A stretch of 49,515 nt of DNA, from positions 1-49,515 of the IMG/VR virus record IMGVR_UViG_3300029319_000082, one strand, 5' to 3'. Positions 16,216-35,582 of the stretch are shown here, one piece after another; position 1 is the first letter of the stretch; every line of letters begins with the position of its first letter. The position numbers and the translations under genes are program-made. The DNA comes from a virus. The notes below the pieces were generated by a model. The model saw nothing but the letters and a program-made list of their open reading frames with translations. It was not told the DNA's origin and made no database searches.

Positions 16216-17163
16216 CTATTTGAATTGTGAACCCATCATGATTTCTGTGAGAGCGGCAACAAGATTAATTTCTTGATCAACCACAAACGCAGACTTGTAT
16301 TGATACTCAGCCAGGATTAGAATCACACTAGGCACTGATCCAGGTTCTACAAACTCTGATACCTGATCATAGATCTTTCGAAAGATTCGTGTTTGGTCAT
16401 TGTCAATATTATCAACAACCCACTTACGCATTGATTTGAAGTCTTTCTTTTTCATGTGATCCATAAGATCGTTGACCGAGACATCAGAGAAGTTGACCAA
16501 GATACCTTCGTCGATTGTACCTGACTGACCATATCGTTGCACCTCATTCAATACACGCCGCCAGTCTGGTGCATGACGTTGAACAAGTTTTACCAGAACA
16601 CGATCATCGTACTTGATACTCTCTCCATCAAGAATATTTCTCAGGCGAACAAAGAAGTCAGCACTCGCTTTCTTCTTGTCGCTGGCGTTGAGTTTGAAGT
16701 CAATCACGGAACAGCGAGAATGCAGAGGTGCGATGATTCGGTTCTTGTAGTTGCATGTGAAAATGAAGCGACAGTTTCGACTGAACTCTTCAATAAATCC
16801 ACGCAACGCTGGTTGTGTTGATTGTGGGTTTAGATAATCAGCCTCATCGAGAATAACAACCTTACTTTCACCACCAAGCGAAACCGTGCTTGCAAAGTTT
16901 TTGATCTTTGTGCGAAGAGTATCGATGCCGCTCTCTTCGGATGCATTGACGAACAAATACTCTTGATTCATCTCATCGCAAAGGGCGCGAGCAACAGTGG
17001 TCTTTCCGCAGCCTGCACCACCCGCAAGCAGTAGGTTCTGCATCTTGCCACTATCCACGATAGATCGAAAAACATCCTTCACCGCAACGGGAAGGATGCA
17101 ATCTTCGATCTTTCTCGGTCGATACTTTTCGACAAACAAAGATTCTTCGAATTTACTTTCCAT
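16216..17163 (-). CDS. 44: Clamp loader large subunit (AAA+), gp44-like, 315 aa
   Basis: ATP-driven opening of the gp45 ring. MESKFEESLFVEKYRPRKIE starts at ATG 17163, inside the end of the gp45 gene; a longer frame to 17187 is not conserved. Walker A LLAGGAGCGKTTVARAL (about residues 47-54), Walker B KVVILDEADYLNPQ with DEAD, sensor 1 FIFTCNYKNRI, and the SRC motif APLHSRCSVIDF that supplies the arginine finger. Length matches T4 gp44 (319). Confidence 0.96.
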   Translation of the reverse strand: MESKFEESLFVEKYRPRKIEDCILPVAVKDVFRSIVDSGKMQNLLLAGGAGCGKTTVARALCDEMNQEYLFVNASEESGIDTLRTKIKNFASTVSLGGESKVVILDEADYLNPQSTQPALRGFIEEFSRNCRFIFTCNYKNRIIAPLHSRCSVIDFKLNASDKKKASADFFVRLRNILDGESIKYDDRVLVKLVQRHAPDWRRVLNEVQRYGQSGTIDEGILVNFSDVSVNDLMDHMKKKDFKSMRKWVVDNIDNDQTRIFRKIYDQVSEFVEPGSVPSVILILAEYQYKSAFVVDQEINLVAALTEIMMGSQFK

Positions 17164-17827
17164 ACTTTGTATCAGGCTCCAAAGCAATCCAATAGGTTAC
17201 GGGAAGTGTTTTGTGTTCAAACTGTGCAACTTGACGCTCACAGATACTTACCTTGTAATCACCAGGAAGCAACTTAAGATTTTCAACTTTGAACAACATC
17301 GAATAACTTTCTTCATCGGCACACTCACCGACAGTCACGCTGTAATCGTTTGACGTAGGATCTTTCTTGTCAAACACACGAAGTCGGCTTTCACCATTAC
17401 CTGTCTCAACAGCGAGATCAGGAAGGGCAAGCGTAGATGCCGCCTGTGTCAACTTACCAAAATTGGTTTGTGTGAGATCAAACTCAATCACAAATTCTGG
17501 AAGATTGATGTCTTTGGTAGGCACGGTAAGCAAAGACGGATCGGCATAGTAATACTTGACCGAGTTCGTTTTGCCACTCTCAGAGATTGTCACATACTTG
17601 TCTTCAAAGTTGAAGATTGGATCGGTGAACAAATTGACCGTCGCAAGAAACTTGTTGAGATCCCACACACCAAACTCGACAGGAAAATCTTCTGTCACAT
17701 GAGACTCAACCAAAACGTTTTTCACAGGCGAGATAGTCTTGACCATGTTGCCTGGTTTGATCAAGACATTTGAATTGATACTCGCAAAGTTTTTAAGAAT
17801 AGCGAGCGTGTCATTAGAAATTTTCAT
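17153..17827 (-). CDS. 45: Sliding clamp, gp45-like, 224 aa
   Basis: Processivity ring of the polymerase and, in T4, activator of late transcription. Starts MKISNDTLAILKNFASINSN, as T4 gp45 (MKLSKDTTALLKNFATINSG), and continues with VEFGVWDLNKFLATVNLF; length matches T4 (228). It has a proper promoter and an AAAGGAG ribosome site. Presence of gp45 gives meaning to the NATAAATA late-type elements elsewhere in the window. Confidence 0.96.
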   Translation of the reverse strand: MKISNDTLAILKNFASINSNVLIKPGNMVKTISPVKNVLVESHVTEDFPVEFGVWDLNKFLATVNLFTDPIFNFEDKYVTISESGKTNSVKYYYADPSLLTVPTKDINLPEFVIEFDLTQTNFGKLTQAASTLALPDLAVETGNGESRLRVFDKKDPTSNDYSVTVGECADEESYSMLFKVENLKLLPGDYKVSICERQVAQFEHKTLPVTYWIALEPDTKYGK

Positions 17828-22192: not shown

Positions 22193-22642
22193 TTATCCTG
22201 GAAAGTCTGGATCAAAACCATCAAAGTCGTCCATAGCGCCATCTATGTCAAGATCATCTGGATCAAGACCAAGTTCATCAGCAAAATCATTCATTCTTTT
22301 TCGTCTTTTCAGATCACCTATCAATCTGTCTAAAGTTATATCTTTGGATAGCATGTCATCGACCTTACCAACATTAATGGTTCCACCAACACCATACTTG
22401 TCTTTCATGAGTTCAGGAATGTCTGGAATTTTATAATCAAGGTCATCTACTCGATCTAATCGTTTACTAACATCATCTATCTTGTTAAGAATATCACCGA
22501 CGCCGGTTGTAGGAGGGACCCTGGTAGCAGTCTTGCCACCCTTGAGAAGTTTCGCTAAAAGTGAAAAGAAACCCTCATCTAAGGCCTGGTAGTAACCCTC
22601 TTGGTATGCTTCTTTGATCATTTGTCTTTGTTCTGGTGTCAT
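22193..22642 (-). CDS. Capsid-targeted-type protein, 149 aa
   Basis: ATG 22642 aligns the module (MTPEQRQMIKEAYQEGYYQA then LDEG) with its sisters; a TTG 15 bases upstream is possible. The cleaved form would begin GFFSLLAKLLKGGKTATRVP. The remainder is rich in Asp/Leu repeats (DDVSKRLDRVDDLDYKIPDI) and ends in a very acidic tail (LDPDDLDIDGAMDDFDGFDP). No enzymatic motif. Acidic tails recur in the family and may mimic or contact DNA-binding surfaces; that is speculation. Confidence 0.75.
   Translation of the reverse strand: MTPEQRQMIKEAYQEGYYQALDEGFFSLLAKLLKGGKTATRVPPTTGVGDILNKIDDVSKRLDRVDDLDYKIPDIPELMKDKYGVGGTINVGKVDDMLSKDITLDRLIGDLKRRKRMNDFADELGLDPDDLDIDGAMDDFDGFDPDFPG
22574..22642 (-). 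repeat. Targeting-module coding repeat, copy 4
   Basis: Coding DNA for the module of the 149-aa gene; almost the same as copy 1 at 11403. Confidence 0.8.
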
Positions 22643-22673
22643 TTTTGTTCTCTTCAAAAGTTGGGTTGTAAAG

Positions 22674-23156
22674 TTATAAATCTATACCTGGAATATCAGG
22701 ATCACCATCAGGGAACCCAGGACCTATTTGGGGACCAGACCCACCCCCAGGTCTACGTCTGATGGGAAGATCTTGAAAAAATGTTTTCATTGCAAATAGA
22801 AAATCGTTTTCTTGTATTACACCTTGCCTATACAGGGATAAAATTCTCAGATAATTTTCTATTTGATCCTCTGGTAGTAAGTAAAGTCTATTGTTAGCGA
22901 TCCATTGAATGATTTCGTCGGTAGACGCACTCATTCCAGGAAATGGACTTCCACTGCCTATGTTCAGGATGCCTCTTCTTTTTCCTCGAAATAAACCTGG
23001 GACTCTTTTAGTTTTAGGAGCCTTAGAAGCAGTCTTAGCACCTTTAAACAACCCCCTCAACGCTGAGATAATACCTTTTAAAGATATCTCATTCAAAGCA
23101 CCATAATAGCCCTCTTGGTATGCTTCTTTGATCATTTGTCTTTGTTCTGGTGTCAT
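22674..23156 (-). CDS. Capsid-targeted-type protein, 160 aa
   Basis: Module MTPEQRQMIKEAYQEGYYGA then LNEI, then SLKGIISALRGLFKGAKTAS, close to the segment after the cut in the 10998 protein. The middle has a small helical domain (STDEIIQWIANNRLYLLPED then QIENYLRILSLYRQGV). The C-terminus is Pro/Gly/Asp rich (GFPDGDPDIPGIDL). RBS AAGGA. Unknown function. Confidence 0.75.
   Translation of the reverse strand: MTPEQRQMIKEAYQEGYYGALNEISLKGIISALRGLFKGAKTASKAPKTKRVPGLFRGKRRGILNIGSGSPFPGMSASTDEIIQWIANNRLYLLPEDQIENYLRILSLYRQGVIQENDFLFAMKTFFQDLPIRRRPGGGSGPQIGPGFPDGDPDIPGIDL
23088..23156 (-). repeat. Targeting-module coding repeat, copy 5
   Basis: First 23 codons of the 160-aa gene; same as copy 1 for the first 17 codons, then the YYGALNE variant. 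Confidence 0.75.
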
Positions 23157-23165
23157 CGTGTTTCC

Positions 23166-23552
23166 TTACCCGATTGGTTCGTCCAAATCAATATCATCTG
23201 CGTCATCTAATCGTTTTTTCAAGGCATCAATCGCATCATCGATTGGGGTATCAAGATCTGGGTTTTTTGGATTGAATAGTCCTTTTTTTGACTTTCTGAG
23301 AATCTCTGACCGTCTTTTCATCACATTTCCCATATATTTACTTCCCTTTACCTCTTTACCTGTGGCTGGATCAATTATGTTACCCTTTCTGTTGAGGGTG
23401 AAACCTTGTTTTTCTAAATTCATTTCCTTAGCGACCTTGGCGGCAAGTCTTTTAAGAAACCGCAACGTAGTTCGTGATGGTGCCTCGTTCAAAGCACCGT
23501 AGTAACCCGCTTGGTATGCTTCTTTGATAAGTTGTCTTTGTGAAGGGGTCAT
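23166..23552 (-). CDS. Capsid-targeted-type protein, 128 aa
   Basis: Module MTPSQRQLIKEAYQAGYYGA then LNEA; LNE followed by Ala is the best match to the T4 gp21 site in the set. The mature part is basic (TTLRFLKRLAAKVAKEMNLE, GKEVKGSKYMGNVMKRRSEI) and ends with the shared tail DALKKRLDDADDIDLDEPIG. Only about 105 residues would remain after cutting. A terminator and a CATAAATA element lie just upstream, so this gene begins a late unit. Confidence 0.75.
   Translation of the reverse strand: MTPSQRQLIKEAYQAGYYGALNEAPSRTTLRFLKRLAAKVAKEMNLEKQGFTLNRKGNIIDPATGKEVKGSKYMGNVMKRRSEILRKSKKGLFNPKNPDLDTPIDDAIDALKKRLDDADDIDLDEPIG
23484..23552 (-). repeat. Targeting-module coding repeat, copy 6
   Basis: First 23 codons of the 128-aa gene; PSQRQL start as in copy 3 and GALNE end as in copy 5, as if formed by exchange between copies. 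Confidence 0.65.
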
Positions 23553-24934: not shown

Positions 24935-25491
24935 GATGTTGTGTAAGCCGGGTTGAAAGACTTTCGTGGCCGTCTACCGCGAGCAGGCTTGAGAACGGTC
25001 TCCAAGGCTACGTTGGTGGGATTGTAGGGCATACGAAAATGGTCAGTGGACGACCTGAGGTCAGCCGGTTGCCGATTTGACACCATGACTTGAAAAAGAT
25101 TTTTGTCTCGTTCTCTATCCATAGAAAGCATAGTACCAGGTCTCCAGCCGTTGACTGGCATTCGACGCCAGAAGTCTCTCACATTTTTCAGTGTCATATA
25201 TCGAAACTCTGCGCCACCGAAGCGACCCTCTTGCACAAGAATCTTTTGCATGGGTCTATTTTCCCAATTGCGATGAAACCAAAAGATCTTTCTGGCTTCA
25301 CGAGGAACATAACTGAGTTGGCTTGTTCTATACATTTCAATTGGACCATCAAGATCAAAACCCATCCAAGTGAAGATGCGAGCATCAAGATGCGCCTTCT
25401 TGCATTCGATCCGATCTTCAATCGAAAACGACATGAGGCCTTGCATTTTCTCTTCAAGCATTTTCTTTTGAAGGGTCTTTGTTTCGTTCAT
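24931..25491 (-). CDS. Unknown protein, 186 aa
   Basis: ATG 25491 overlaps the stop of the upstream gene (TGATG). Trp/Arg-rich central region (IFWFHRNWENRPMQKILVQE, FRYMTLKNVRDFWRRMPVNG) and a basic C-terminus (LKPARGRRPRKSFNPAYTTS). No motif of a known enzyme. Possibly nucleic-acid binding. Confidence 0.65.
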   Translation of the reverse strand: MNETKTLQKKMLEEKMQGLMSFSIEDRIECKKAHLDARIFTWMGFDLDGPIEMYRTSQLSYVPREARKIFWFHRNWENRPMQKILVQEGRFGGAEFRYMTLKNVRDFWRRMPVNGWRPGTMLSMDRERDKNLFQVMVSNRQPADLRSSTDHFRMPYNPTNVALETVLKPARGRRPRKSFNPAYTTS

Positions 25492-25859
25492 CAAAAGGGT
25501 GGCTCCTCTGCGCCTTGTTTGCCTTCAGTGGCGATGCTCAACAATTGTCCGAAACCCGTCTCGGCAAACTTTCGCATATCGACCAGGCTCTTTGTTGCTG
25601 GATACCAAACGTCGATATCATCAGAGCCTTCAAAGTCGCCTTCTGAGTTCGACTTGAACACCATAGTCTCATTGACCTCGTACCGCTCGTCTGTTTGTTT
25701 GACTCGCATGCGAGAGGAAGAGACAACAACGTGCATCGGATTCAAGCCATCTGGCTCATAAGACCAAAGAGTCTGGTAGATCCATGACCCTTTATCATCC
25801 ATCTTCTCATTCTTCAAAGTTCTCACAAACTTCATTGGCTCGTTCTTTGTTTCTTCCAT
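25491..25859 (-). CDS. Unknown protein, 122 aa
   Basis: MEETKNEPMKFVRTLKNEKM, then a beta-rich domain (SWIYQTLWSYEPDG, HVVVSSSRMRVKQTDERYEV) with an acidic loop (NSEGDFEGSDDIDVWYPATK). No family recognised. Coupled by one- to four-base overlaps to both neighbours. Confidence 0.65.
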   Translation of the reverse strand: MEETKNEPMKFVRTLKNEKMDDKGSWIYQTLWSYEPDGLNPMHVVVSSSRMRVKQTDERYEVNETMVFKSNSEGDFEGSDDIDVWYPATKSLVDMRKFAETGFGQLLSIATEGKQGAEEPPF

Positions 25860-26550: not shown

Positions 26551-26670
26551 GGCAAAAGTTTGAGGGGCCGAAGTAAAAATGGGGAAATCCAGTCTTGGGG
26601 TTGGAGCGGCTTTTTTTGCCACGATTTTTTGTTTCCGCCCTATGTCAGTCCATAGAGTTGCTCGTCGAAG

Positions 26671-26743
26671 TGCTTCGGGAGGGGCTCGAACCCTCAACTT
26701 ACCGGTTAAAAGCCGGTTACTCTACCAATTGAGTTACCAAAGC
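26671..26743 (-). tRNA. tRNA-Lys (anticodon UUU)
   Basis: Acceptor GCTTTGG/CCGAAGC, D arm ACTC/GAGT, anticodon stem ACCGG/CCGGT with loop CTTTTAA (UUU), T arm GAGGG-TTCGAGC-CCCTC, discriminator A, no encoded CCA. It stands alone, 20 kb from the other tRNAs. The rest of the 26551-26786 gap shows no other gene I can support. Confidence 0.9.
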
Positions 26744-26786: not shown

Positions 26787-27062
26787 TTAGGCCACAGGCT
26801 CAGGCTGTGGGACAGACTCGGCAGCAGGTTCGCTTGCCATGACCTGTTCTGGCTCAGCAGCCAGTTCAGGGATCGAGTAGACGCCCTTAGAGACGCGACG
26901 ATCAGAGTCTTTCATAAGCCATCGAGGAAGAGTATGACCCGTAGCCTCTCGAACAGCGAGGCAGTCAGCACGGGTCATGGTGTCTTGGCTGAAGCCCGCA
27001 GTACGAGCAGCAGCGACAAAGGAAGTGATTTGTTCAGTAAGGGGTTGTGAGTTGCGTGGCAT
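26787..27062 (-). CDS. Paralogue of the AAA+ protein's N-terminal domain, 91 aa
   Basis: ATG 27062 follows GAAGGAG; the longer upstream frame is not conserved. The domain TRADCLAVREATGHTLPRWL then MKDSDRRVSKGVYSIPELAA aligns with residues 25-65 of the AAA+ protein at 27604 (LTRQQVKDVAAKHGVTLPRW, RASRGVYMLP). Both then run into an Ala/Pro/Glu linker, where this one stops. It may bind the same partner as the ATPase and regulate it. The helix-turn layout also allows DNA binding. Confidence 0.75.
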   Translation of the reverse strand: MPRNSQPLTEQITSFVAAARTAGFSQDTMTRADCLAVREATGHTLPRWLMKDSDRRVSKGVYSIPELAAEPEQVMASEPAAESVPQPEPVA

Positions 27063-27099
27063 ATTAAATGCTCCTTCTAAAAGTGGTGTGAAAAAGTGT

Positions 27100-27312
27100 T
27101 CAATACAAACCGGGTTGTGCGTCCCAGTAATCGTGTGGATCAGAGTAGTCGTCTTCGAGTTCGTAGACTTCGCCAAAGTAGGCATCGTCAACATCGTCTT
27201 CGAGATCTTCGTCCTCTGGATCATAGTTCATTGGATCGTTGGCATCGAGGGACATCTCGTCGTCGAGAGTCTCGTATGGGTTGTAAGAATGTCGGTCGTA
27301 GTTGCCTTGCAT
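27100..27312 (-). CDS. Very acidic small protein, 70 aa
   Basis: MQGNYDRHSYNPYETLDDEM, then a stretch dominated by Asp/Glu/Tyr (DPEDEDLEDDVDDAYFGEVY). ATG two bases after the stop of the upstream gene, with no strong ribosome site, so coupling is likely. Strong negative charge could mimic DNA; that is only a guess. Confidence 0.6.
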   Translation of the reverse strand: MQGNYDRHSYNPYETLDDEMSLDANDPMNYDPEDEDLEDDVDDAYFGEVYELEDDYSDPHDYWDAQPGLY

Positions 27313-27314
27313 AG

Positions 27315-27599
27315 TTAGATTTTACCCTCGGATTGGTCTGTGTCAAGAAGATTTTCAGAATTCAGAATATAATTTTTCTGAATCCACGTGTCGGATGCTG
27401 CTTCGGCTTCTTCGCGGGTGGCGTAAACGACCACCTTTTTGAGGCTTGCAGAGGACTCTTGGCGAGTCAGAAATTGAACCACATAGTGGCCAGAGTGGCC
27501 ATCGTACTCGATGGCCGCGTCGGCTTTCATCGTCACAGGAGCACCCCCATGACGATGAGCCAACGGTTCTCTTGAAGGGTCTGGTTGAGAAGTCGCCAA
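27315..27599 (-). CDS. Unknown protein, 94 aa (start uncertain)
   Basis: The core is MKADAAIEYDGHSGHYVVQF, LKKVVVYATREEAEAASDTW, an alpha/beta unit like small modules that pair a strand with an AREEAEAA helix. TTG 27599 is the first start; an internal ATG before KADAAI is also possible. Unknown role. Lies between the AAA+ gene and the acidic ORF in the GC-rich block. Confidence 0.6.
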   Translation of the reverse strand: MATSQPDPSREPLAHRHGGAPVTMKADAAIEYDGHSGHYVVQFLTRQESSASLKKVVVYATREEAEAASDTWIQKNYILNSENLLDTDQSEGKI

Positions 27600-27603
27600 T
27601 ACA

Positions 27604-28959
27604 TTAGAAGGGCGACTCCTCAGTGGCTACCCACTCGTGGCGAGAGAAGAATTCTTTCGCCTCGTCGCTGGCGTTGTCGAGGTCGATACCCCAAGTTTTG
27701 GTATCGGGCTCCCAGCGGGCGCCGAACGACTTGGCCTGATCTTTTTGATCATAAGGCACGCGGGCAGAGATTTTGCCTGAGGCGACACGCTCAGACTCAG
27801 TGGGCTCAGATTGAGCCGGAACAGTCTGGGCATCAATCTTGGTGTAGAGGTCGCGGAACGCCTCTTTGGTTTCTTGATCGAAACGGGCAGTAGCCATCTC
27901 GACTGACTTCATGCGGTCGCCGAAGATAGCGAACGCGCCGACGACATGCTCAAGGCGTCGAGTGGTGATGATCTCACCTTCGCCGCTCTCGAAGTAAAGT
28001 TCTCGCGTGGTCTCAGCCCACTTCGAGAGGCAATCAGCGAAGTTCTCATCGTCGCAGCCAAGATTTTTCATCATGCCGCGAACGATTCGGCGCTCAGTGA
28101 TGCGAGAGGGATACTCTTGCTCAAGGCACACTGGGAAGCGGTCGAGCGAAGCCTCGTTCATAACGTTGGCGCCGATGAATCGACCAGTCTCGTCGCCTTG
28201 CCCCTTAGTGTTGGCAGTAGCGACAACGGTGAAGCCAGCAGCAGGCGTGATGATTTCATTGATTCGCTTGATCAAGAAGGGCTTGCCTTCGAGGACAGGC
28301 TGAAGACACATGGTCTTCGGCGTGGCTTGATCGTACTCGTCAAGAAGCAACACAGCGCCGCGACGGGCTGCGAGGGTGACAGGACCATCTTTCCAGATCG
28401 TCTTGCCATCTTCGAGAACAAACGAACCGAGAAGTTCATCTTCATCGGTCATGTTGGTGATGTTGACGCGGAAGCATTCGCGTCCGAGAGCCGCACAGGC
28501 TTGCTCGATCATCGTGGTCTTGCCGTTGCCAGAAAGACCAGTCACGAACATCGGGTAGAAACGGTTCGAAGCAAGAACCGTACGAACATCGTCGAAGTGA
28601 CCGAACGGAACATAGTTCGGAATCTTCGCAGGCACAGTCTGGCCCGCAATGGACGACATGACCGAGACGGTCGCATCGGACTGAGCCATCTCAACAACGG
28701 GAGCAGGGGCAGCAGGGGCTGGAGCAGCCACTGGTGCAGGAGCAGCCGGCGCAGGCGCAGAAGCCTGGTCGGCAGTCGGAAGCATATAGACGCCTCGGGA
28801 TGCTCGATACTGCTCGTCATTGAGCAACCAGCGGGGAAGAGTCACGCCGTGTTTAGCGGCGACATCTTTCACTTGCTGGCGAGTAAGAGTAGAACCCGAC
28901 CCGAAGCCCTCAGCCGCAGCAGCAGTCAAGAATTCGGATCGATCAACAACTTTAGGCAA
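27604..28959 (-). CDS. MoxR/CobS-like AAA+ ATPase, 451 aa
   Basis: TTG start 8 bases after GGAG. Domain 1 (residues 1-65) is the LPRWL-type module also present alone at 26787. An Ala/Pro linker follows. The AAA+ core has Walker A VTGLSGNGKTTMIEQACAAL (about residue 140), Walker B AVLLLDEYDQATP, sensor 1 FTVVATANTKGQG and EASLDRFPVCLEQEYPS. The end (VPYDQKDQAKSFGARWEPDT then KTWGIDL) resembles DUF5710, a small domain of phage and mobile-element proteins. MoxR-type ATPases act with VWA proteins to insert metals or remodel complexes; the divergent VWA gene fits. CobS-like genes are known in T4-like cyanophages. Confidence 0.85.
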   Translation of the reverse strand: MPKVVDRSEFLTAAAAEGFGSGSTLTRQQVKDVAAKHGVTLPRWLLNDEQYRASRGVYMLPTADQASAPAPAAPAPVAAPAPAAPAPVVEMAQSDATVSVMSSIAGQTVPAKIPNYVPFGHFDDVRTVLASNRFYPMFVTGLSGNGKTTMIEQACAALGRECFRVNITNMTDEDELLGSFVLEDGKTIWKDGPVTLAARRGAVLLLDEYDQATPKTMCLQPVLEGKPFLIKRINEIITPAAGFTVVATANTKGQGDETGRFIGANVMNEASLDRFPVCLEQEYPSRITERRIVRGMMKNLGCDDENFADCLSKWAETTRELYFESGEGEIITTRRLEHVVGAFAIFGDRMKSVEMATARFDQETKEAFRDLYTKIDAQTVPAQSEPTESERVASGKISARVPYDQKDQAKSFGARWEPDTKTWGIDLDNASDEAKEFFSRHEWVATEESPF

Positions 28960-28995
28960 GGTTGAGTCTCCTTCAAGAGAAAAGCGAGAATGTCG

Positions 28996-29012
28996 GGGGC
29001 GACAATCGCCCC
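28996..29012 (-). promoter_or_regulatory. Leader hairpin of the AAA+ mRNA
   Basis: GGGGCGA-TTG-TCGCCCC on the minus strand: a perfect 7-bp GC-rich stem about 30 bases upstream of the GGAG of the AAA+ gene. Could modulate translation or stability. Confidence 0.5.
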
Positions 29013-29024
29013 GTCACATAGGCC

Positions 29025-29052
29025 ATCTTACCATCTGTTTTGCGATCTGCAA
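29025..29052 (-). promoter_or_regulatory. Sigma70-type promoter of the AAA+ gene
   Basis: Reverse strand TTGCAG (29047-29052), 16 bp, TAAGAT (29025-29030); the leader then includes the hairpin and the ribosome site. Confidence 0.55.
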
Positions 29053-29130
29053 GTCGATTTAGACGAATTTTAGCATTTTATCCAGATTTTTTGGCATGTG
29101 CGTTTTTACGTCAAAAATCGTGTTTTTTTG

Positions 29131-29163
29131 CGTCAAAAGCCAGTTTTTTTGGCTTTTTTGACG
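29131..29163. repeat. Inverted repeat CGTCAAAAGCC / GGCTTTTTTGACG
   Basis: Two oppositely oriented copies of the TTTTTTGACG element with GCC/GGC inner ends and a T-rich loop, forming an imperfect hairpin (two extra T in one arm). It could be an operator or a bidirectional terminator. Confidence 0.5.
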
Positions 29164-29198
29164 TTTTTTACTTGTTTTTTGTCAAAAAGATGGTACCA

Positions 29199-29212
29199 CG
29201 CGGGCGCCCGCG
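29199..29212. repeat. Perfect 14-bp palindrome CGCGGGCGCCCGCG
   Basis: Directly follows the palindrome TGGTACCA and stands in otherwise T-rich sequence. Typical of a dimeric repressor site; no such repressor is identified in the window. Confidence 0.6.
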
Positions 29213-29243
29213 CCCGTTCATCCCTCCCCCTTTTTTGACGCTC

Positions 29244-29265
29244 TCTGTTAGGGGTCTGTTAGGGT
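29244..29265 (+). repeat. 11-bp direct repeat TCTGTTAGGGG / TCTGTTAGGGT
   Basis: Two head-to-tail copies about one DNA helical turn apart, 45 bp before the -35 of the VWA promoter, where an activator or repressor could bind on one face. Confidence 0.5.
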
Positions 29266-29309
29266 ATCCAAAAAATCTGGAGAAAATGTCGATTTTTCGC
29301 ATTCTGCAC

Positions 29310-29337
29310 TTGCCAGCGTCGATTTGCATGGTATAAT
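29310..29337 (+). promoter_or_regulatory. Sigma70 promoter of the VWA gene, leaderless arrangement
   Basis: TTGCCA (29310-29315), 16 bp, TATAAT (29332-29337). Only six bases separate the -10 box from GTG 29344, so the mRNA should start at or within a base of the start codon. Confidence 0.65.
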
Positions 29338-29343
29338 GGATGC

Positions 29344-31734
29344 GTGACTGATCGACAAAGACATTCGAAAGATATGCTCGCCCGCTTGCTTGCGGGTGAG
29401 AATTTGACGGTCGTGCATAACGGTGAAGCCGAGACGGCATCGTTCGATCTCCAGAATCGAACGCTTACGATGCCCGTCTTGGCTAATATGACCCCTGAGG
29501 TTTACGACCTGTTCGTCGGCCACGAGGTGTCTCATGCTCTTAATACTAAACTCGACGAGTGGAAACAAGGTGTCGAGCAAGTCTCCGGTGGCGTCAAATC
29601 GCTGCAAGGTCTCGCTCATTCCTGCCTCAACATCGTCGAGGATGTTCGTATTGAGCGCCTGATTCAAGCCCAGTTCCCTGGGCTTCGTCGTTCGTTTGTG
29701 CATGGCTATCGGGCCCTTTGGGCGCAGGACTTCTTCGGTGCTTCCGAGAAAGACTTGTCGCCTGAGGGCATTCACCTTCTCGACCGACTCAACATTCACT
29801 TCAAGGCTGGCGCCCAATCGGGCGTTCAGTTCTCTGCTGATGAGCAAGCCTGGCTTGATCGTTTCGACGATCTTTCGACCTGGGCTGATGTTCAGTCGCT
29901 GGCTCAAGACCTGTTCGACTTTTCGAAGCAAGAGCAAGACCAGCCTGAGACCCCTCAAGATTCATTCGAAGGCGACGATGACCAGGGCGAGTCTGCCCCT
30001 GGCTTCGAGTCCGATGACCAAGACGATCAAGAGTCTGGTTCGGGTGACGATGAGGGCGACACTGGCGAGCAAAGCGGCGACGAGTCAGGCGAAGGCTCCG
30101 ACGAGGGCGAAGAGACCAAGGGCGACGGCTCGATGGATTCTGCCGACGAGGCAGAAGACGACGGTTCGAATGCCGAAGGCGAGTCTCGCCAGACTCAACC
30201 TGACGACCCTGAGTCTTCCGAGACTGACTCGGGCAGCACCGAAGAGAATGGCTCAGGCGCTTGCGACGAACCAGGCTGGACTCAACGGCACTTCAATCAA
30301 AAATTGAAGGACATCGCTTCTCAGTCTCAGCGTGGCACTGGCAATATCGAATTGCCCGAAGCCAATCTTGATCGCATTGTCGTGCCGTGCGAAGAATTGC
30401 ACGCCAATCTCTTCCAGCACTGGTCTTCTCGCAAGGTTGACCTCGCTGCTGGCGAAGCGGCTTGGGACCGCGTCAACAAAGGCGCTGTTGGCACGATGGT
30501 CAAAGAATTCGACATTCAAAAAGCGGCTGACGAGTGGCGACGAACCGAGACGGGCAAGACTGGCCTTCTCGACATGAATCGTCTCCACGAGTATCGCTTC
30601 AATGACGATATTTTCAAGACCCGCACGACCGTTCGTGATGGCAAGAATCACGGCTTCGTGTTCTTCATCGACTGGTCTGGCTCGATGGATAACGTCATGG
30701 CTGATACGCTCGACCAATTGCTGAATATGATTTCGTTCTGCAAGCGTGCTGGCGTTCCTTGTGACGTTTACGCCTTCGCCGACAAGCGTGTGCATCGTGA
30801 CCCCTGGGCCGATGCCGAGCAGAGCGGTCATGATTTCAAGAATTGGGTGTCGGCCTACAGCGGCTCTCGTACTCACCGCTTGTGGCATCTCGCTTCGACT
30901 GACCTCAAGGGTCGCAAGTGGCAGGCGATGTTCCGCAACCTGATCGCTGTTCGTGATTCGTTCATGGACACCGAATGGGGTGGCTACGCTAAGAACTCCT
31001 ACATTCCTCGCTTCAATGCGGCTCGCCCCTCATACTTGGGCTTGACTGGCACTCCTCTGCAAGAATGCATGGTCTGTGCCGTTTCTCTGGTCGCTCAGTT
31101 CCAAGAGCGTCACGGCGTCCAAGTCATGAATACTGTGTTCCTGACTGACGGCGACGGCTGCGATTCCTTGTATTACAAAGGCGATCTCGGCTACGAAAAC
31201 GATGCGGTTCTCGTCGATCCCAAGACTCACAGGCAGTACCCCGTCAACTCTAAGGGCAAGTCGATGGGTCGCGAGGCTTACAAGAACATGGATGATGCTC
31301 TGCTGGCGCTGTTGAAAGACCGCACTGGCTGTAACCTGCTCGGCGTTCGGGTCACTCATGAGTCTCTGACTTCGAAGAAGACCAAGGCTGCCCTGAATGA
31401 TGTCGTGAACGATACTGACAATGGCTTCACCTGGGACATCCCGTGTGAGTTCCGTCAAGCCCTCAAGAACATCGATCCCAAGATGGCTGCCAAGCGTGCC
31501 AAGAGCATGCTCGACTTCGGCTTCTGCGAGTCTGGCTGGTCTGGCTTCGATACCCACTTCATCGTCGCTGGCAAGAACCTGAAAATCGACCAGACTGACC
31601 ACATGGGCAATCTGGGTGCGAACGGCAAGAAGGTTACCCTGCGTTCTGCCAAGTCGGCGTTCAAGAAGTCTCTTGGGGGTAACAAGGCTGCGAGAATGTT
31701 CGCTAGCCAGTTCGTTGCTGCCATCGCGTCCTGA
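29344..31734 (+). CDS. CobT-like VWA protein with HExxH N-terminal domain, 796 aa
   Basis: The N-terminal 200 residues contain FVGHEVSHALNTKLDEW (HEVSH, about residue 60), a metallopeptidase-type motif like DUF2201_N proteins. A long acidic Gly/Asp/Glu/Ser linker follows (about residues 200-310), as in CobT. The C-terminal half is a von Willebrand A domain with MIDAS signature FFIDWSGSMDNVM (DxSxS, about residue 440) and FLTDGDGCDSLYYKG. Partner of the divergent MoxR/CobS-like ATPase by family precedent. No ribosome site: GTG 29344 fits a leaderless mRNA; ATG 29374 is an alternative start. GC content is higher than elsewhere (58% in one 60-base sample), a sign of separate origin. A strong terminator follows. 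Confidence 0.85.
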   Translation: MTDRQRHSKDMLARLLAGENLTVVHNGEAETASFDLQNRTLTMPVLANMTPEVYDLFVGHEVSHALNTKLDEWKQGVEQVSGGVKSLQGLAHSCLNIVEDVRIERLIQAQFPGLRRSFVHGYRALWAQDFFGASEKDLSPEGIHLLDRLNIHFKAGAQSGVQFSADEQAWLDRFDDLSTWADVQSLAQDLFDFSKQEQDQPETPQDSFEGDDDQGESAPGFESDDQDDQESGSGDDEGDTGEQSGDESGEGSDEGEETKGDGSMDSADEAEDDGSNAEGESRQTQPDDPESSETDSGSTEENGSGACDEPGWTQRHFNQKLKDIASQSQRGTGNIELPEANLDRIVVPCEELHANLFQHWSSRKVDLAAGEAAWDRVNKGAVGTMVKEFDIQKAADEWRRTETGKTGLLDMNRLHEYRFNDDIFKTRTTVRDGKNHGFVFFIDWSGSMDNVMADTLDQLLNMISFCKRAGVPCDVYAFADKRVHRDPWADAEQSGHDFKNWVSAYSGSRTHRLWHLASTDLKGRKWQAMFRNLIAVRDSFMDTEWGGYAKNSYIPRFNAARPSYLGLTGTPLQECMVCAVSLVAQFQERHGVQVMNTVFLTDGDGCDSLYYKGDLGYENDAVLVDPKTHRQYPVNSKGKSMGREAYKNMDDALLALLKDRTGCNLLGVRVTHESLTSKKTKAALNDVVNDTDNGFTWDIPCEFRQALKNIDPKMAAKRAKSMLDFGFCESGWSGFDTHFIVAGKNLKIDQTDHMGNLGANGKKVTLRSAKSAFKKSLGGNKAARMFASQFVAAIAS

Positions 31735-31765
31735 GAGAAACTCGACAACTGAATACAGTCACGAA

Positions 31766-31792
31766 GTCCGGCAGAGATGCCGGGCTTTTTTT
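31766..31792 (+). terminator. Rho-independent terminator after the VWA gene
   Basis: GTCCGGCA, loop GAGA, TGCCGGGC, then seven T. An 8-bp stem with a GNRA-type loop. Confidence 0.9.
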
Positions 31793-32600: not shown

Positions 32601-32663
32601 ATGAACTTTAGACAACAATTACAAGAAGCATACGAAGCAGGATATAGATCTGGCTTGAATGAA
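32601..32663 (+). repeat. Targeting-module coding repeat, plus-strand copy A
   Basis: First 21 codons; differs from copy B at 32828 in only a few bases, while the genes downstream are unrelated. Confidence 0.8.
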
Positions 32664-32816
32664 CAATCTGCTGGATCAGGTGCTGCACCACCATTTCAAC
32701 CACCATTTGTTAATTCAACAGCACAGGCAAGAGCCAGACGCGCCATTCGCATCAGAAAGATGATGAATCTATTTAAGAATTTGATGGCCTCACCGGTGGG
32801 CCCAGGTCTCGATTAA
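32601..32816 (+). CDS. Capsid-targeted-type protein, 71 aa
   Basis: Module MNFRQQLQEAYEAGYRSGLN then EQ; cleavage after LNE would leave a 50-residue peptide starting QSAGSGAAPPF. The peptide has a Pro-rich start and a basic amphipathic helix (RARRAIRIRKMMNLFKNLMA). Its small size and charge resemble a DNA-associated internal peptide. The module DNA is nearly identical to that of the next gene. Confidence 0.7.
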   Translation: MNFRQQLQEAYEAGYRSGLNEQSAGSGAAPPFQPPFVNSTAQARARRAIRIRKMMNLFKNLMASPVGPGLD

Positions 32817-32827
32817 AGGAAACTAAC

Positions 32828-32890
32828 ATGAACTTTAGACAGCAATTACAAGAGGCATACGAAGCAGGATATAGATCTGGCTTGAATGAA
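32828..32890 (+). repeat. Targeting-module coding repeat, plus-strand copy B
   Basis: First 21 codons of the 213-aa gene; near-identical to copy A 227 bp upstream. Confidence 0.8.
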
Positions 32891-33469
32891 CAGGACGTAT
32901 ACAAGAGACCTGCGAGAGTCTCTGCATTGGGTGGACAAAAGTTTCACGCTATCGTAGATAGTAAGGGTGTTATCGTCGCTGCTGGCTTGACAGAAAAAGA
33001 AGCCAGAAAGAAAAAGAAGTTTGGTCAGAAGGTGATGGAACTGCCTGGTGCAAAAGTCGGGCAAGTGATCAAGAAAGAAGCATACGAAGCAGGCTATGAG
33101 TCTGAATTGAATGAGGGCGTATTGAGTGGTATTTTAAGACTTGCAAGACTTCTTGGCATGGCTGACAATGTACCATTAAGCGGTGCGAAAGGTACGGTTA
33201 AAAAATTTAAAGCAAGGAAGAACTACCTAGACCGCGACGTTGCAGGTGATGTTCTCGTTCCTGCACCAGAAGGAGGAGTGAAGATTGGCAACCCAGACAC
33301 CACTGCACCCCCACCACAATCAGTTGATGATGTCATTGGTGATCAGCCACTCGATACACGAAAAGCACGGTATCGCAATCCCGTTCGATTAACGCCAGAT
33401 GAGATCAGAGATTTGGCTGATCGCCTGAAAAAACTAGCAGATGATGATCTAGACACACCAATAGGATAA
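32828..33469 (+). CDS. Capsid-targeted-type protein with two targeting modules, 213 aa
   Basis: Starts with MNFRQQLQEAYEAGYRSGLN (then EQ) and carries a second copy at residues 81-96 (IKKEAYEAGYESELNE, then Gly). If both are cut, a 75-residue basic spacer (RVSALGGQKFHAIVDSKGVI, EKEARKKKKFGQ) and a 117-residue product are released. The C-terminus LADRLKKLADDDLDTPIG is the acidic tail shared with the 19390 and 23166 proteins. Best example of a module array inside one chain. Confidence 0.75.
   Translation: MNFRQQLQEAYEAGYRSGLNEQDVYKRPARVSALGGQKFHAIVDSKGVIVAAGLTEKEARKKKKFGQKVMELPGAKVGQVIKKEAYEAGYESELNEGVLSGILRLARLLGMADNVPLSGAKGTVKKFKARKNYLDRDVAGDVLVPAPEGGVKIGNPDTTAPPPQSVDDVIGDQPLDTRKARYRNPVRLTPDEIRDLADRLKKLADDDLDTPIG
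33068..33115 (+). repeat. Internal targeting-module copy
   Basis: Codes IKKEAYEAGYESELNE in the middle of the 213-aa protein; GAAGCATACGAAGCAGG is identical to part of copy A. Confidence 0.75.
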
Positions 33470-34505: not shown

Positions 34506-34822
34506 AATCATTTCTCGAATATCTCACAGAGGGCAAGCGTATACCCAAGACTCGCAAGAATCAAGACCCTGATACGCATAGCGACCTCTACACTGATGAG
34601 AATCCAAAAGGCACGATTCATGGTCTTGGTTTCAAAGATGTCAAGACAGCCGAAGCGTCAGTCAAAAAGATTGAAGCATCGAATCGAACACATGCACACA
34701 AGGTGCAAGCCGCAATTGCAATGGAGCAAAGAGCAAGGGTGATGGGCAAGAAAGCCGAAGCGGCTGTGTATCGTAAATACATTGAGAAGATGAAGAAGAT
34801 TACGAAAGAGAAAAACAAATGA
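34502..34822 (+). CDS. Small protein with T4 internal-protein-like leader, 106 aa
   Basis: MKSFLEYLTEGKRIPKTRKN: LTE then Gly at residue 10 is an excellent gp21-type site. The body (HSDLYTDENPKGTIHGLGFK, AHKVQAAIAMEQRARVMGKK) is a conserved-looking domain that I believe occurs in other phages, without known function. ATGA overlaps on both sides. Confidence 0.75.
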   Translation: MKSFLEYLTEGKRIPKTRKNQDPDTHSDLYTDENPKGTIHGLGFKDVKTAEASVKKIEASNRTHAHKVQAAIAMEQRARVMGKKAEAAVYRKYIEKMKKITKEKNK

Positions 34823-34881
34823 ACTTCAAACAACAACTACAAGAAGCCTATGAGGCTGGGTACAGGCAATCTCTACAAGAG
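34819..34881 (+). repeat. Targeting-module coding repeat, plus-strand copy C
   Basis: First 21 codons of the 154-aa gene; protein close to copies A and B, DNA more diverged. Confidence 0.65.
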
Positions 34882-35283
34882 GCTGTCGATGATGCCTACG
34901 AGGCCTATGAACGAGGCGAGATCAATGAAGAACAACTCGATGAGATTGTTGGCCTCATAACCAGAGGAATTTCTGCCATTCCTAAAATTGGTAAAGGATT
35001 GAAGAAGGGTTATGATTTTGTAAGAAAATCTTTTAGAAGACCAGTCAAGAAGAGAGGAACACCAGGAGTGACTCAACACTTAGATCCAAACACTGGTCTT
35101 CCTAAACCCGCAGGCCCAGACTATTACCCAACGGGTCACGGTCGCCCACCATTCCCCGGTGATACGAGATCACCACAGGGAGTTCTTGATGATAGACGAA
35201 AAATAGGACGATTTATTGATCCTCCTGAACCTCCTACCGACTATGATCCCTTTGACCCACTAGGACCATTGCTAGATCCCTAA
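34819..35283 (+). CDS. Capsid-targeted-type protein, 154 aa
   Basis: Module MNFKQQLQEAYEAGYRQSLQ then EA (LQE then Ala), followed by a second acidic helix DDAYEAYERGEINEEQLDEI with a second LDE. Then a basic segment (GLKKGYDFVRKSFRRPVKKR) and a Pro/Asp/Gly-rich end (PPEPPTDYDPFDPLGPLLDP). No fold recognised. Confidence 0.7.
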   Translation: MNFKQQLQEAYEAGYRQSLQEAVDDAYEAYERGEINEEQLDEIVGLITRGISAIPKIGKGLKKGYDFVRKSFRRPVKKRGTPGVTQHLDPNTGLPKPAGPDYYPTGHGRPPFPGDTRSPQGVLDDRRKIGRFIDPPEPPTDYDPFDPLGPLLDP

Positions 35284-35297
35284 ACAAGGAAAACGAA

Positions 35298-35582
35298 ATG
35301 ACACCAGAACAAAGACAACTTATTAAAGAAGCGTATATGGAAGGGTACAATGAGGCGACCCATCTTAGCGATGAAGAACTTGAGGAGGCCATTGGTCTCA
35401 TGCCCATCTTAGCGACATTGGGTCGAGGAGCGTTGGCGTTCGGTAGAAGACCAATTGTTAGTAAAACTTTAGGTGCCTCAGGGGTCTATGACTCTGGATC
35501 ATTTATCATGAATAACGCACCAGCAGTTGGTAAGGCAATGACGCCAAAGGGTCCTTTCCCTGGTGGTTACAGACCATTCTAA
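35298..35582 (+). CDS. Head-type protein, 94 aa
   Basis: MTPEQRQLIKEAYMEGYNEA: the minus-strand type of module (TPEQRQ) on the plus strand. The end differs (THLSDEELEEAIG), so the likely cut is after LEE before Ala. The mature part is small and Gly/Pro rich (LMPILATLGRGALAFGRRPI), with a possible hydrophobic helix. RBS AAGGA. Confidence 0.65.
   Translation: MTPEQRQLIKEAYMEGYNEATHLSDEELEEAIGLMPILATLGRGALAFGRRPIVSKTLGASGVYDSGSFIMNNAPAVGKAMTPKGPFPGGYRPF

Follow-up and report, generated by a model that had tools for sequence, protein, structure and literature searches.

The 49,515-nucleotide stretch that makes up positions 1 to 49,515 of IMG/VR virus record IMGVR_UViG_3300029319_000082 (the whole stretch is hereafter the window) comes from a T4-like phage and carries a divergent pair of genes for a CobS-like MoxR ATPase and for a protein that joins an HExxH motif to a von Willebrand factor A (VWA) domain. 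The pair is a real, well-conserved module, and very probably it is a MoxR-VWA motor. We further propose, tentatively and as something close to but short of an even chance, that it acts on phage replication and recombination complexes as an ATP-driven remodeller. The two genes are:

27604-28959, minus strand: CobS-like MoxR AAA+ ATPase, 451 residues (phrog_249, 9e-98; AAA_5, 3.5e-19; DUF5710, 1.4e-8), with a winged helix-turn-helix (wHTH)-like N-domain (8-59), an AAA+ domain (about 110-377), DUF5710 (about 397-440) and an acidic tail ending in TEESPF
29344-31734, plus strand: VWA protein, 796 residues (phrog_459, "peptidase", 5.5e-155, residues 7-795), with an HExxH N-domain (1-198), an acidic disordered linker (202-307) and a C-terminal VWA domain with a full metal-ion-dependent adhesion site (MIDAS)

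The ATPase, the HExxH-VWA protein and their place in phage genomes

A preliminary description of this DNA, made from its letters alone, had recognized a MoxR/CobS-like ATPase divergent from a VWA gene, and this assignment holds. The ATPase has the Walker motifs GLSGNGKT and LLLDE, and its match to phrog_249 ("porphyrin biosynthesis") spans residues 105-389. Its AlphaFold2 model (mean pLDDT 84) is closest in fold to CbbQ2 (Z 25.7, 2.4 A over 261 residues) and NorQ (Z 24.1, 2.3 A over 250), with the next, unrelated AAA proteins at Z of about 17. The CbbQ_C family (PF08406) gave no profile match in the window CobS, yet the fold alignment extends to residue 377. Residues 8-59 were modeled with high confidence as a helix, a strand, two helices and a hairpin, an order of secondary structure that we read as that of a possible winged helix. 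With tblastn, the ATPase matched 607 of 50,697 phage records.

The HEVSH motif that had been pointed out in the VWA protein lies at residues 60-64, and H60, E61 and H64 are followed by N96xxE99D100xR102I103. The MIDAS is formed by D443, S445, S447, T570 and D602 (DxSxS-T-D). When aligned with seven annotated phages, H60, E61, H64, N96, E99, D100, R102 and the MIDAS residues were invariant. No VWA homologue lacking HExxH was among those compared, the motif being present in 135 of 135 full-length homologues. The fair set for judging this conservation is the 49 homologues found through CobS alone, because the other retrieval used the HExxH motif itself; all 49 have HExxH and all 49 have NxxEDxR. 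The protein has the zincin-type combination of HExxH with a downstream invariant acidic residue, E99, from which a peptidase role of the N-domain may be predicted.

The model of the VWA protein (mean pLDDT 72) found its best fold match in the VWA domain of NorD (Z 16.1, 4.2 A over 260 residues), with midasin close behind. Two stretches inserted into the VWA domain (about 481-510 and 541-560) were modeled with low confidence and could form a finger that enters the ring pore. No zincin was listed among the fold matches, which says nothing about the N-domain because VWA-domain matches filled the list. The VWA protein received no call from Pfam, NCBIfam or PADLOC, and PDB sequence searches with the protein or its profile returned only chance or low-complexity matches and a weak match to the CobT linker. 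With tblastn, 463 of 50,697 phage records were matched, nearly all of them cyanophages and all at less than 60% identity; a search of IMG/VR by single-sequence patterns found no close relatives of either CobS or the VWA protein.

The cobS gene is a cyanophage core gene (PMC3037559). The preliminary remark that T4-like cyanophages carry a CobS-like gene was correct, and both partners belong to known, annotated families of the Kyanoviridae, here T4-like cyanophages and pelagiphages. The order gp47, gp46, VWA, CobS, gp45, gp44 is found in S-RIM4, HTVC008M, Ochrobactrum phage OC, P-SSM2, S-SRM01 and S-SM1, and in Mosig the pair is likewise followed by gp45 and gp44, while the part read has other genes ahead of the pair. 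The hosts of the annotated phages in which the pair lies between gp46/47 and gp45/gp44 are cyanobacteria, SAR11 and Ochrobactrum. In the window, the clamp and clamp-loader genes are found about 10 kb downstream of CobS and in the same direction, with RegA and gp43 beyond them:

16216-17187, minus strand: gp44 clamp loader (phrog_168, 1.8e-117)
17153-17827, minus strand: gp45 sliding clamp (phrog_223, 3.6e-74)

The order CobS-gp45-gp44 is therefore kept, with added genes, and since CobS is still upstream of gp45/gp44, it is CobS that holds the ancestral place and the VWA gene that is inverted. A VWA gene was near CobS in 137 fetched loci and in the window, on the same strand in 132 of these 138 rows (one fetched locus, L001, is the window's own fragment). 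The window pair belongs to the same families as the Kyanoviridae phrog_249/phrog_459 pair, with full-length matches and the same neighbourhood upstream of gp45/gp44. It differs in being divergent rather than tandem and 13-15 points richer in G+C, in a VWA protein that is about 30% identical, in the DUF5710 carried by CobS and in an extra stand-alone copy of the CobS N-domain.

Two further contigs share the window design. In L022/G001, CobS and VWA are divergent, CobS has a DUF5710 tail (2e-9) and two stand-alone CobS N-domain copies lie alongside; the window and G001 proteins are 32% (VWA) and 48% (CobS) identical. In L091/G003, the genes are again divergent, and a DUF5710-like open reading frame (ORF), just under the cut-off on a stand-alone scan, directly follows CobS. 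These phages form a new sub-variant, marked by the DUF5710 tail of CobS, stand-alone CobS N-domains and twin inverted promoters.

Relatives on conjugative elements and C-terminal tails

A genome scan with the phage profile found bacterial proteins that combine HExxH, the motif NIxEDVRIE and a VWA domain with an acidic linker and whose genes adjoin that of a NorQ-like AAA protein; the SXT/R391-type and IncC modules have all these features in common with the phage pair. An Idiomarina chromosome has RecT/Bet, a YqaJ exonuclease, AAA, DUF3150, VWA and RadC; pR997 (L260) has ssb, bet, exo, AAA, DUF3150, VWA and radC; and an IncC plasmid (L261) has AAA, ssb, bet, exo, DUF3150 and VWA. By their gene order, we take the Idiomarina and pR997 elements to be SXT/R391-like. 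A related pair of HExxH-VWA and NorQ-like AAA genes is also found near an exonuclease gene on pCAR1. The SXT/R391-type and IncC modules are thus set among DNA recombination genes, as the phage pair is set in a replication and recombination cluster, although they have DUF3150 and other partners unseen in phages and the sequence identity is low. That related pairs lie beside DNA replication and recombination genes hints at an action on DNA machinery and not on vitamins. Literature searches, in which most subscription journals were not covered, found no paper on DUF3150 or on phage cobS together with MoxR and VWA.

The C-terminal ends of phage CobS proteins often resemble the DDDIPF tail of the bacterial single-stranded DNA-binding protein (SSB), as in S-RIM4 (EEEAPF), in L142 (PDDIPF) and in the window, where acidic residues are followed by P-aromatic at the extreme C-terminus (TEESPF). 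This SSB-like tail on phage CobS is a new observation. Among CobS proteins thinned to less than 70% identity it was present in 18 of 54, whereas only 1 of the 661 other ORFs in these loci had it; at 55% clustering, 10 of 20 CobS proteins had an acidic..P[FWY] end, where shuffled tails would give 0.05. Linkers of different lengths precede the retained tail, and in the window the added DUF5710 precedes it as well. C-terminal ends with two or three aromatic residues are shared instead by several neighbours on pR997 (exo, SFYF; DUF3150, SFYF; another protein, NYYF) and on the IncC plasmid (exo, TFYW; bet, GSYY; DUF3150, DYFF; a further protein, DHFF). These sequences suggest that the CobS tails and the aromatic ends on plasmids could be docking peptides in one DNA-linked system. 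We also note a protein encoded at 25491-25859 (minus strand) that ends in GAEEPPF, a CobS-like tail, and that has a homologous stretch (35% identity) downstream of the G003 CobS.

Control region, composition and small genes of the block

The region between the two genes contains the following elements, as read from its sequence:

28960-29343: putative bidirectional control region with two diverging sigma70-like promoters that lie within an extended inverted repeat, and with TTTACGTCAAAA-type repeats
29310-29337, plus strand: candidate VWA promoter, TTGCCA-16-TATAAT with TG before the -10 element; 11 of 12 consensus matches; exact motif match
29025-29052, minus strand: candidate CobS promoter, TTGCAG-16-TAAGAT with TGG before the -10 element; exact motif match

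Both promoters have the same design, TTGC-N14-ATGG-TANNNT, in which a spacer of 16 bases separates the -35 element from a TG-extended -10 element. The exact pattern occurs twice in the window, both times between CobS and VWA, and five times in 1.93 Mb of fetched loci, each time immediately ahead of the VWA or CobS gene in one of the three divergent GC-rich phages; as the pattern was derived from four of the five matches, what is independent is the fifth match (L091) and the absence of any more. The VWA gene of the window starts with GTG, 6 nucleotides past the -10 element (29310-29346), and in all three divergent phages the VWA start codon is 6-9 bases past it, so that the mRNA is probably leaderless. 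CobS starts with TTG at 28959, behind an AAGGAG ribosome site. The intergenic stretches contain extended inverted repeats that exceed those of any of 60 shuffles each. A fair reading of these sequences is that expression of CobS and VWA may be coupled through the paired promoters.

Three copies of a TTTTTACGTCAAAA-like repeat, with another inverted, lie at 29098-29187, and TTTACGTCAAAA is common to the CobS-VWA intergenic regions of the window and G003. Exact DnaA-type boxes, TTATCCACAA, are found between CobS and VWA in G001 (41573) and G003 (738 and 749); those of G003 are in tandem and are the sole ones in that 31-kb contig. The only counterpart in the window is TTATCCAGA at 29078. A replication origin between the genes was considered and is not claimed, the window having no exact TTATCCACAA and a skew switch that tracks gene direction.

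The block had been described as richer in G+C than the rest and as different in codon choice. A sliding-window profile was indeed non-uniform, with a G+C of 0.50-0.57 from about 26.5 to 32 kb. To the left of this the values are 0.38-0.47, with a gradual increase that begins at about 23.5 kb; to the right they are 0.35-0.46, after an abrupt drop to 0.42 near 32 kb. The edges of the block are marked by two features:

26670-26743, minus strand: tRNA-Lys (TTT), at the left edge
31763-31788, plus strand: intrinsic terminator after the VWA gene (11-pair stem, then a T run), at the right edge

At third codon positions the G+C is 0.61 for CobS and 0.64 for VWA, as against 0.27-0.48 for most genes outside and up to 0.55 for a few. 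Codon choice was likewise deviant, with A-ending codons almost missing from both genes: ACA accounts for 0 of 76 Thr, AGA for 2 of 70 Arg and TTA/CTA for 0 of 90 Leu codons, when the fractions in outside genes are 0.42, 0.45 and 0.23, respectively (Fisher P <1e-9 for each). Four of the five phage tRNAs in the window (Leu-TAA, Leu-TAG, Arg-TCT and Thr-TGT) read codons that CobS and VWA avoid. An avoidance specific to the codons of phage tRNAs was rejected; because the two genes shun A-ending codons as a class, the match with the tRNAs does no more than suggest that they were written for an unaided host.

In principle, the block could be a recent transfer from a GC-rich donor, as its G+C excess of 13-15 points over the rest is the largest among 103 loci measured and a tRNA gene marks its left edge. 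We consider this origin improbable. CobS was richer in G+C than its surroundings in 103 of 103 loci (mean +5.6 points) and VWA in 76 of 103 (mean +2.1 points), so that a smaller excess is seen in relatives generally; the place of CobS upstream of gp45 is conserved; no integrase was among the genes scanned; and the composition would be accounted for equally well if early genes had host-like codon usage. Moreover, G001 has the same architecture and its own GC block (0.52-0.60 over about 33-44.5 kb, with 0.39-0.50 in most of the adjoining 9-33 and 44-65 kb and about 0.3 in the first 7 kb), and a block common to two phages whose VWA proteins are 32% identical argues against recent transfer. The composition is thus weaker evidence of foreign DNA than it looks. 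Of the "GC-rich island" of the preliminary description, the deviant composition stands and the isolated oddity does not: this is a known phage pair whose position among the clustered replication genes is fixed.

The block, taken from 26787, also includes three small genes downstream of CobS:

26787-27062, minus strand: small protein with a stand-alone copy of the CobS N-domain (tblastn-level similarity to the CobS N-domains of relatives)
27100-27312, minus strand: very acidic ORF of 70 residues with its own putative promoter, TTGACA-16-TAAAAT (27312-27346)
27315-27599, minus strand: ORF of 94 residues, no family match at curated cut-off

The ATG of the acidic ORF is 6 nucleotides past a near-perfect -10 element, a leaderless-like arrangement as for the VWA gene. 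Independent stand-alone copies of the CobS N-domain lie beside cobS in other phages, and in the tandem-type loci L095, L102, L106, L113, L121 and L141 such a copy is directly upstream of cobS. As a separate observation, near-identical leaders of 20-25 residues, MTPEQRQMIKEAYQEGYYGALNE or MNFRQQLQEAYEAGYRSGLNEQ, ending in LxE, are found on proteins encoded at 22193-23552 (minus strand), 32601-33469 (plus strand) and 34819-35582 (plus strand). Such leaders occur on numerous proteins encoded to either side of the block and recall the leader that targets the internal head proteins of T4 to the capsid, together with its cut site for the prohead protease.

Proposed mechanism, alternatives and known systems

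After the model of NorQ/NorD, we infer a complex in which a hexameric ring of the CobS-like ATPase would hold one VWA protein, with the VWA domain plugging the ring. ATP hydrolysis would rotate the VWA domain relative to the HExxH domain at the N-terminus and stretch the acidic linker, which would then pull on a target bound at the MIDAS metal site. The most likely target would be a phage replication or recombination complex, to be opened, assembled or dismantled by the motor. Possibly, the HExxH domain clips or metallates the client, and the wHTH-like domain, DUF5710 and the SSB-like peptide of CobS may bring the ring to DNA or to SSB-tail-binding proteins. Several results weigh against this proposal. 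The gene neighbourhood names no target; neither a profile nor a fold match identified the CobS N-domain as a wHTH; two thirds of the CobS family are without an SSB-like tail; and the AAA protein of the plasmid elements has CbbQ_C and is without a PF tail. An origin of the CobS tail as an imitation of phage gp32 is also unsupported: S-SM1 gp32 ends in KLAEED, so that in this phage the tail is no copy of the phage SSB.

The pair could instead be a metal-insertion chaperone that, as NorQD does, matures a phage or host metalloenzyme, such as ribonucleotide reductase (RNR) or the 2-oxoglutarate (2OG)-Fe(II) oxygenases. The nearest folds, NorQ and NorD, are iron inserters (PMC13036017), and Kyanoviridae have 2OG-Fe(II) oxygenase genes near the pair and nrdA/nrdB elsewhere. 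However, the loci read link no metalloenzyme gene to the pair, and the IncC, R391-like and pCAR1 relatives adjoin recombination or nuclease genes, not a metalloenzyme gene; we regard this role as rather unlikely. A protease directed at the host or its defences, in which HExxH would cut a host protein unfolded by the AAA+/VWA motor and expression would be early, from host-type promoters, would fit the HExxH and downstream invariant E of the homologues (HExxH in all 135), the sigma70-like promoters with a possibly leaderless mRNA and a codon usage unlike that of the rest of the phage. This explanation also seems unlikely, and distinctly so: there was no PADLOC match of note, the peptidase activity is itself a prediction, and the position in the replication cluster is kept across phages of unrelated hosts, which suggests a phage-intrinsic target.

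A role as auxiliary cobalamin genes, with CobS (and CobT) boosting vitamin B12 synthesis by the host, is highly improbable. It would agree with the annotations "porphyrin biosynthesis", "CobS" and "CobT", and with distant profile matches, to CobS and, for the relative on an integrative element, to Pfam CobT. The aerobic cobaltochelatase CobN-CobS-CobT is indeed a distant relative through CobS, with a similar two-protein scheme. However, the phage protein scores 76 bits against the CobS equivalog TIGR01650, for which the cut-off is 558; the CobT model TIGR01651 has no match in the window record; and no CobN (TIGR02257) was present in any of 13 phage records, of which seven are complete-genome entries, the window record being a fragment. 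The pair is also present in phages of SAR11, which is not known to make B12, and S-SM1 encodes a class I RNR, which is B12-independent. Of the earlier labels "MoxR/CobS-like" and "CobT-like", therefore, the pairing of a MoxR/CobS-like ATPase with a VWA protein is retained, and an identity with the CobS and CobT of B12 synthesis does not pass the curated tests.

An action of the pair on DNA machinery is thus the reading we prefer. It is conceivable, if doubtful, that T4-like phages, SXT/R391-type elements and IncC plasmids share a MoxR ring with a VWA-HExxH lever that remodels or clips replication and recombination complexes, to which it would be recruited by SSB-like aromatic C-terminal peptides. 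If so, the "CobS" and "peptidase" of hundreds of marine phage genomes would be misnamed parts of a machine. Studies of ocean viromes routinely list cobS among the auxiliary metabolic genes for B12, and the evidence points away from this and toward DNA machinery. The presence of related pairs on IncC plasmids and R391-type elements would link the question to the recombination of conjugative elements.

The preliminary description had also likened the pair to chaperones that insert metals or activate enzymes. By fold, the likeness is closest to NorQ/CbbQ and NorD and not to cobaltochelatase. NorQ/NorD and CbbQ/CbbO are the motors with the closest solved folds for both phage proteins. The phage is without nor or rubisco genes and without a Pfam CbbQ_C match, and its VWA N-domain has an invariant HExxH, the comparison with NorD being one of domain order and VWA fold only. 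NorD consists of an N-domain, a linker that is disordered and, at the C-terminus, a VWA domain (PMC9976466); iron enters the target, nitric oxide reductase, through the twisting of NorD by NorQ (PMC13036017). The phage VWA protein is laid out in the same way, its C-terminal VWA domain having a MIDAS.

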